Below, in pieces: positions 17,010-18,630 of a DNA stretch of 64,000 bases. The DNA is from an uncultured Kushneria sp. GTDB taxonomy: Bacteria; Pseudomonadota; Gammaproteobacteria; Pseudomonadales; Halomonadaceae. Below the pieces are notes generated by a model. That model did not search any database, was not told the origin of the DNA, and saw nothing but the letters and a program-made list of their open reading frames with translations. Within the stretch, counting starts at the first letter, position 1. The number at the start of each line of letters is the position of its first letter. The position numbers and the translations under genes were made by a program. The stretch lies in NCBI RefSeq assembly GCF_947497025.1, contig NZ_CANMFC010000003.1:248001-312000 (forward strand). The letters are read 5' to 3'.

Positions 17010-17261
17010 TCAGTGCAGGAAGGGAAGGCCAGCATTGGAAAAGGGCATGGGGATGTTTTGCACGTGGCCAATCACCAGGGCCAGTATGATCGGACTGAAC
17101 AGGGCAAACAGAGTCAGCATCAGCCAGTTAAGCCGTTCATACCAGAGCACGTTGCGATAACGCCGATTGGAGGGCAATGGATTACGCAGGGAGCGATACC
17201 CCATTGGCATCTTTTCTTCTGCTTTCTCTTCCGTCATCACATCCTTGTTCTGCTGAGACAT
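17010..17261 (-). CDS. Small hypothetical membrane protein
   Basis: One clear hydrophobic segment (LNWLMLTLFALFSPIILALVIGHV); start overlaps the stop of the upstream ORF (TAATG), suggesting translational coupling. Confidence 0.6.
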   Translation of the reverse strand: MSQQNKDVMTEEKAEEKMPMGYRSLRNPLPSNRRYRNVLWYERLNWLMLTLFALFSPIILALVIGHVQNIPMPFSNAGLPFLH

Positions 17262-17485
17262 TACGAGACCATCTGCGCCTGAATCAGTGAGTCGATCAAT
17301 ATGTCTGCGCCCATTTCCGGGCGGGTGACTCGTAAAATGATAAAGGCAGTCCGATGTGCAGACTCAAACGTGTTCCACGCTTCGTCAGGACACTCCAGAA
17401 AGGATTCCACCCAGCGTGATGCCCATGCCTGACAGGGCGTGTGGTGTTCCGGATAGCAGGGACGGGTCATCGTGGGCAACTCCAT
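17261..17485 (-). CDS. Hypothetical protein
   Basis: 74 aa ORF coupled by TAATG overlap to the small membrane-protein ORF. Confidence 0.5.
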   Translation of the reverse strand: MELPTMTRPCYPEHHTPCQAWASRWVESFLECPDEAWNTFESAHRTAFIILRVTRPEMGADILIDSLIQAQMVS

Positions 17486-17917: not shown

Positions 17918-18130
17918 CTAACCTGCCTTGCGCGTCATGCCGGCACGATGAAGCTGAAATTCCTCGGCCATGGCAAGATCAAAGGCGGCCTGACGAAATT
18001 CCTGCATGGTGCAGATATAGTGCCCGTTGGAGCATCGTAGCTCATGATGGTCCGGAGTGCGCCCGGGCCAGGAAAGCGTGATATTGCATTCGGGGCAATG
18101 CGGGTCACTACGGGAACCGGTTGGGTTCAT
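17918..18130 (-). CDS. Hypothetical small protein with zinc-ribbon-like cysteines
   Basis: HCPEC...RCSNGHYIC arrangement; 70 aa. Confidence 0.55.
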   Translation of the reverse strand: MNPTGSRSDPHCPECNITLSWPGRTPDHHELRCSNGHYICTMQEFRQAAFDLAMAEEFQLHRAGMTRKAG

Positions 18131-18248
18131 GACATTTCCCTTGTCGGTATGGATGGTAATACATGATGTCTGTTCACGAGGGCATTCCTTGCCCTCGATG
18201 CGGCGCAGACTCTAGCACAATGTAGTGACCTGTACAGGCCTGCCTGTA

Positions 18249-18277
18249 TTGGCAAATAGGCTAGTGGTGTTTAAATT
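18249..18277 (+). promoter_or_regulatory. Candidate sigma70-like promoter for the downstream structured RNA
   Basis: TTGGCA - 17 nt - TAAATT; moderate match only. Confidence 0.3.
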
Positions 18278-18339
18278 TAAGATTGATCTAATATTTTGCG
18301 AATTCTGGGTGAGTAGGCTTTTGCGGGCGGGGTCGTGGT

Positions 18340-18463
18340 ATGTCTTGCATGATTTCAGAGATTAATTCAGAAAGCATGGAACCAATCCCGACCATCGTAG
18401 TCAGAGATAGTGCAAGACATCCTTCTGGGTTTCTTTGCCCCTCCTTACTAGAGGGGCTTTTCT
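18340..18463 (+). ncRNA. Candidate structured small RNA ending in an intrinsic terminator
   Basis: Perfect 10-bp closing arms ATGTCTTGCA (18340-18349) / TGCAAGACAT (18411-18420), followed 16 nt later by a strong terminator; no plausible ORF explains it. Confidence 0.5.
18437..18463 (+). terminator. Rho-independent terminator of candidate sRNA
   Basis: GCCCCTC-cttacta-GAGGGGC followed by TTTTC. Confidence 0.88.
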
Positions 18464-18545
18464 TTGTTTACAATTCACGAAACGGCCATACGTTTACTTC
18501 TGCTGATTGACTGCCACGACGCAATGCGTACAATACGCCGCACTC

Positions 18546-18630
18546 GCGGGAGTGGTGGAATTGGTAGACACGCTGGATTTAGGTTCCAGTGCCGCAAGGC
18601 GTGAGAGTTCGAGTCTCTCCTTCCGCACCA
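18546..18630 (+). tRNA. tRNA-Leu (anticodon UAG)
   Basis: GCGGGAGTGGTGGAATTGGTAGACACGCTGGATTTAGGTTCCAGTGCCGCAAGGCGTGAGAGTTCGAGTCTCTCCTTCCGCACCA: acceptor, D, anticodon (CTGGA-TTTAGGT-TCCAG), variable and T arms with encoded CCA. Confidence 0.97.

Follow-up and report, generated by a model that had tools for sequence, protein, structure and literature searches.

A predicted 55-nt small RNA with a sigma-E-type promoter in Kushneria and its putative target, the mRNA of an OmpA-domain lipoprotein

Small RNAs (sRNAs) that depend on sigma-E typically silence the mRNAs of outer-membrane proteins and lipoproteins (PMC6737893). The enterobacterial sRNAs MicA and RybB (PMC1804206, PMC6737893) are short intergenic transcripts of about 70-80 nt, encoded at the luxS-gshA or ybjK-ybjL locus; they have a sigma-E promoter and a Rho-independent terminator and target outer-membrane protein mRNAs by pairing at the start or close to it. 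MicL (SlrA), a sigma-E sRNA that represses the mRNA of the peptidoglycan-linked outer-membrane lipoprotein Lpp, is cut from a 308-nt transcript inside cutC (PMC6737893). In Pseudomonas aeruginosa, the AlgU/sigma-22-dependent sRNA ErsA acts post-transcriptionally on algC, amrZ and oprD, the last of which encodes an outer-membrane protein (PMC5819304). Among sRNAs of Kushneria or Halomonadaceae, no sigma-E case was described in the open-licence literature searched.

The sRNA gene considered here lies in a 64-kb stretch of Kushneria DNA (the window). The segment 18412-18466 of the plus strand probably encodes an antisense sRNA, about 55 nt long and acting in trans, that is induced by sigma-E and silences the mRNA of a lipoprotein with an OmpA domain. 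Its predicted organization and mode of pairing resemble those of MicA and RybB; in contrast to them, it is found at serS-cysG, is shorter, has another predicted target and shows no sequence or Rfam match to either. A peptidoglycan-linked lipoprotein as the predicted target likens it to MicL, whereas the Kushneria sRNA is predicted to be a primary intergenic transcript, and the two sequences are unrelated by Rfam. ErsA is comparable by description, since it is driven by AlgU, the sigma type predicted here, but its known targets differ from the lipoprotein predicted here. The sRNA is best read as a new, uncatalogued family within a known kind, the sigma-E-dependent envelope sRNAs. The features of the locus are as follows.

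18378-18383, plus strand: -35 element GGAACC of the predicted sigma-E/AlgU promoter (AAC invariant in 14 of 14 homologues, GGAAC in 10 of 14)
18401-18405, plus strand: -10 element TCAGA of the same predicted promoter, preceded by a variable 17-nt spacer (leading TC in 100% of the 14 homologues)
18412-18429, plus strand: predicted +1 and 5' seed GCAAGACATCCTTCTGGG (identity 0.96 versus 0.43-0.60 upstream)
18412-18466, plus strand: mature sRNA of about 55 nt, predicted from promoter geometry and terminator
18437-18457, plus strand: intrinsic terminator stem-loop GCCCCTC/GAGGGGC (all 13 homologues keep the stem pairs)
18458-18466, plus strand: T-rich terminator tail TTTTCTTTG directly after the stem, predicted 3' end
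18507-18534, plus strand: conserved sigma-70 promoter of tRNA-Leu, TTGACT-N16-TACAAT, outside the sRNA gene
18546-18630: tRNA-Leu gene, adjoining the sRNA gene downstream

The tRNA was the sole Rfam match in the window, and its separate conserved sigma-70 promoter indicates that it forms its own transcription unit. In all homologues, serS-cysG is located upstream of the sRNA gene, and most of them adjoin the same small minus-strand gene as that at 17918-18130 of the window. The tRNA-Leu neighbour is optional, being absent from beside the sRNA homologue in the Halotalea genus and in K. sinocarnis. The minus-strand genes 17918-18130 and 17261-17485 encode small conserved proteins of 70 and 74 aa, respectively, which gave no Pfam or NCBIfam match and stay near serS-cysG in several Halomonadaceae genera. 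Between gene 17918-18130 and the sRNA gene, a palindrome TACAGGCCTGCCTGTA (18233-18248) adjoins the conserved minus-strand sequence TGTGCTAGAGT, which is similar to an extended -10 element; together they are probably the operator and promoter of gene 17918-18130.

Homologues of the sRNA gene were found by DNA search of the genus and family in 10 of 10 sampled Kushneria genomes, including that of the window, and in two genera besides Kushneria. A search with an RNA model of 13 sequences recovered the same set (E from 4e-24 to 5.5e-16) and added one further genus, represented by genome G038 (2.7 Mb; E 1.6e-8). The comparison set thus consisted of 13 homologues, from the other sampled Kushneria, two Halotalea-genus genomes, Phytohalomonas and G038, or 14 carriers with the window. 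A scan of named genomes gave matches in Kushneria aurantia, indalinina, avicenniae, pakistanensis, phyllosphaerae and sinocarnis, as well as in Halotalea alkalilenta and Phytohalomonas tamaricis. Model searches that included other families of the order detected no convincing homologue beyond Halomonadaceae. The weak matches in those families were mostly bare terminators, and one of them, L087 (ACATCCTACTGGGT), is suggestive only and sits at another locus. Exact-pattern matches in Lachnospiraceae, Bacillota, Claveliimonas, a cyanobacterium and Colwellia were judged to be due to chance, since they were isolated and had neither promoter nor terminator.

The 14 homologues were aligned on the GCAAGAC motif, and the mean column identity was computed for each segment. 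It was 0.43 at positions -120 to -76 and 0.53 at -75 to -41; within the promoter, the values were 0.88 and 0.77 for the -35 and -10 boxes and 0.60 and 0.56 for the spacer and discriminator. Positions +1 to +18 were nearly invariant (0.96), and the fully invariant upstream columns were AAC (-32 to -30) and TC (-11 and -10). By comparison, the conserved parts show an sRNA gene in three parts, namely, a sigma-E/AlgU-type promoter, the 5' end and an intrinsic terminator.

The predicted promoter reads GGAACC-N17-TCAGA (18378-18405). The published AlgU consensus is GAACTT-N16/17-TCtgA (PMC10651043), and the Salmonella sigma-E promoter has GGAACTTTT as the -35 and GTCAAA as the -10 element (PMC1804206); the invariant AAC and TC fit both and are the signature of a promoter for an extracytoplasmic sigma factor. 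The algU gene was identified in 10 of 10 Kushneria genomes (NCBIfam TIGR02939, above the cut-off), and upstream of it, again in all 10, GGAACC or GGAACT is followed after 17 nt by TCTCA, TCACA or TCAAA. The sRNA gene promoter (GGAACC/T, 17 nt, TC) has the -35 element and spacing of algU's own promoter. In the Kushneria genomes G002 and G008, the algU promoters read GGAACTTTG, and the sRNA promoter likewise has GGAACT. In 12 homologues, GCAAGAC is 28 nt away from the end of the -35 box, and in the other two the distance is 29 nt; because of this constancy, together with the terminator, the RNA is predicted to span 18412-18466, with its +1 at 18412. A promoter of sigma-E type is thus present at the right distance from the predicted +1, and the gene would be transcribed under sigma-E control in vivo.

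According to the cmscan analysis (Infernal, Rfam 15), no Rfam family came near its gathering score in the 415-nt intergenic stretch, and the covariance models of MicA, RybB and MicL gave no match. The top full-length match was RprA (RF00034), whose 21 bits (E = 6.6) fall far short of the gathering score of 70 and come chiefly from a similar CUUUGCCC...GGGCUUUU terminator; the 5' half of RprA falls here on upstream DNA and not on the RNA. The leads to RprA, mmgR/suhB, anti-hemB and VqmR were all far under their gathering scores, and the terminator accounted for the matches. The lack of a strong Rfam match and the conservation of the gene in close relatives support the preliminary description insofar as it proposed that an undescribed sRNA gene ending in an intrinsic terminator precedes tRNA-Leu.

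The terminator was correctly placed there at 18437-18463, with the stem at 18437-18457 followed by the T-rich tail; it is the best of five terminator-like sites, where 1.4 were expected, and one pair of its stem shows a two-sided change among the homologues. Folded alone, 18412-18466 forms, besides the terminator, a weak AUCC-UUCU-GGGU hairpin, whose bases hardly vary across homologues and so leave covariation no power. The RNA is predicted to consist of a short unstructured seed and a terminator, with a promoter of sigma-E type.

The preliminary description had envisaged a longer, structured sRNA of 120-180 nt starting near 18283, which now seems very improbable. The elements that it quoted do exist (ATGTCTTGCA at 18340-18349, TGCAAGACAT at 18411-18420, and TCAGAGAT at 18355 and 18401), as does the sigma-70-like site TTGGCA-N17-TAAATT (18249-18277), which speaks for such a transcript along with GATTAATTC (18360-18368), partly conserved within part of Kushneria. 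As a sigma-70 promoter, the site failed, matching at 9 of 12 positions where shuffled sequences give 1.3 such sites, and it is not conserved. Neither did the proposed 10-bp long-range helix withstand comparison. Its 3' arm is nearly invariant and holds the predicted +1, but the best upstream match to the 5' arm in the other 13 homologues is only 6-8 of 10, so that the long-range pairing is not conserved; the arm itself occurs only in the species of the window and lies upstream of the sigma-E-type promoter. The direct repeat was likewise reinterpreted: its first copy is not conserved, and its second corresponds to the -10 box plus discriminator in the conserved promoter. Folding of the supposed 183-nt RNA is matched by shuffled sequences (z = -0.03), identity is just 0.43-0.53 from -120 to -41, and the invariant -35/-10 pair would sit unexplained inside such an RNA. 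Even less probable is that no functional RNA is made and the element is merely a conserved terminator or insulator that separates tRNA-Leu from the small divergent gene on the minus strand (17918-18130). The strong conservation of the stem would suit this, but there is no upstream sense gene to terminate, the 18 nt before the stem and the two promoter boxes are also conserved, and the element is kept in the Halotalea genus and K. sinocarnis, where no tRNA adjoins it.

Since sigma-E sRNAs typically silence mRNAs of outer-membrane proteins and lipoproteins (PMC6737893), targets of the short sRNA were sought in a small set of outer-membrane genes selected on this hypothesis, the start regions of Porin_4 and OmpA-domain genes. 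The standout gene encodes a lipoprotein of 311 aa that contains thrombospondin type 3 repeats and a C-terminal OmpA domain. The nearest family is PA1041, whose members are peptidoglycan-binding anchor lipoproteins; the match has 229 bits, under the curated cut-off of 250. The gene start reads AGAAGGAGTCTTGC directly before ATG in 10 of 10 Kushneria. The sRNA 5' end is complementary over 14 bp, with one bulge, to the ribosome-binding site AGAAGGAGUCUUGC preceding AUG; the duplex consists of GCAAGAC:GUCUUGC, a bulged A and UCCUUCU:AGAAGGA, and spans the region from the Shine-Dalgarno sequence to AUG. The pairing site (AAGAAGGAGTCTTGC before ATG) is present in all 10 Kushneria, both Halotalea-genus genomes, Phytohalomonas and G038, so that pairing at the translation start of a lipoprotein mRNA is predicted in 14 of 14 carriers. 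Porin_4 porins were rejected as targets, having no strong conserved pairing. An ungapped search with CCAGAAGGATGTCTTGC, allowing up to three mismatches, gave more matches than the reversed control, none of them at convincing start codons, and ungapped complements longer than 14 of 17 yielded no start-site targets; this search missed the lipoprotein because of the one-base bulge.

The duplex energy is -25.8 kcal/mol in the species of the window and -24 to -29 kcal/mol in 13 of 14 carriers. The value of -25.8 was reached by 7 of 5000 dinucleotide shuffles of the sRNA and 0 of 5000 of the target, and 1 of 195 other gene starts, each allowed its best alternative start, fell below -25 kcal/mol. In K. 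aurantia, the sRNA has UACC instead of UUCU, and part of the pairing is lost (-18.8 kcal/mol). The most diverged sRNA, that of G038, begins with GCAAGAUUCCUUCU, in which C7 is replaced by U and the bulged A is lost; it still forms 14 bp with the unchanged target, bulge-free and with one G-U pair (-28.8 kcal/mol).

It is unlikely, though less so than the two alternatives above, that the lipoprotein match is incidental and that this sigma-E-dependent sRNA acts mainly on other mRNAs. The seed contains CAUCCUUCU, the complement of AGAAGGAUG, and weak matches to many ribosome-binding sites are thus expected; the match here, however, runs past the Shine-Dalgarno sequence through GUCUUGC to AUG. All 18 seed nucleotides are conserved even though GGG is unpaired with this target, and the lipoprotein leader is also kept in genera where the sRNA was not detected. 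Against this, the match is kept in the 14 carriers, through the sequence change in G038, and the target class suits sigma-E sRNAs. The leader, AAGAAGGAGTCTT followed by A or G and then C (L289-L301 and others), is conserved across most Halomonadaceae, including genera in which no sRNA was detected, which may reflect either another constraint or role of the leader or another or diverged sRNA that the model missed. It ends in GTCTTGC in carriers and often in GTCTTAC in non-carriers; this trend is not taken as proof, because the ending GC is shared by at least three genera of non-carriers. A diverged partner RNA for the GTCTTAC leader, a possible site, would begin with GUAAGAC, the exact partner being GUAAGACUCCUUCU.

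Other sRNA-like elements were observed in relatives. A second sRNA candidate, absent from the window, is located 100-200 nt past the first sRNA in L096, L097, L098, L099 and L102, and in the same intergenic region without the first sRNA in L125-L127. It consists of a GCTGCC..GGCAGC hairpin, a linker ATTCCCTGCGTACTT and a strong terminator, and its best Rfam match was SorY (29 bits, gathering score 111, E 4e-4). Another conserved element, in which TCATGGTTTCTCCCTCTCATTGCTAGTCACGG or TGGTGATCTCTCTCATCAAGCTAATCACGG precedes a GCC-rich terminator, was noted in L068, L079 and L082 (genus g11) and in L083 and L090 (other families of the order); in L068, L079 and L083, it gave no Rfam match at the gathering score.

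In the proposed mechanism of lipoprotein silencing, misfolded envelope protein or envelope stress would free sigma-E (AlgU), which would transcribe the sRNA gene from GGAACC-N17-TCAGA. The RNA would present an exposed 5' seed GCAAGACAUCCUUCUGGG followed at once by the Rho-independent terminator, presumably its Hfq-binding end, the U-rich tail being compatible with Hfq dependence. The seed would nucleate at GUCUUGC and zipper through the Shine-Dalgarno sequence, pairing with AGAAGGA-GUCUUGC just 5' of AUG. This would mask the Shine-Dalgarno sequence of the mRNA of the peptidoglycan-binding outer-membrane lipoprotein and block the ribosome, so that less lipoprotein would be made and the envelope protein load lowered under stress; further targets may be repressed as well.

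The chances appear about even that this is a Halomonadaceae-specific sRNA of about 55 nt, comprising a seed, a terminator and almost nothing else, which evolved independently towards a circuit like MicL-Lpp or MicA-OmpA and silences a peptidoglycan-anchoring lipoprotein. If so, few primary bacterial sRNAs would be shorter, and co-evolution of the sRNA and its target would have replaced the bulge by a G-U pair in one lineage. With the whole regulator in about 55 nt, promoter, seed and terminator would each be open to point mutation. Kushneria and its Halomonas relatives are salt-tolerant, and control of the envelope is central to such a life. The finding, if true, would extend the sigma-E envelope-stress sRNA strategy to Halomonadaceae, and a target that is a peptidoglycan-anchoring lipoprotein and not a porin, as with MicL and Lpp, would point to repeated evolution of this regulation by unrelated RNAs.
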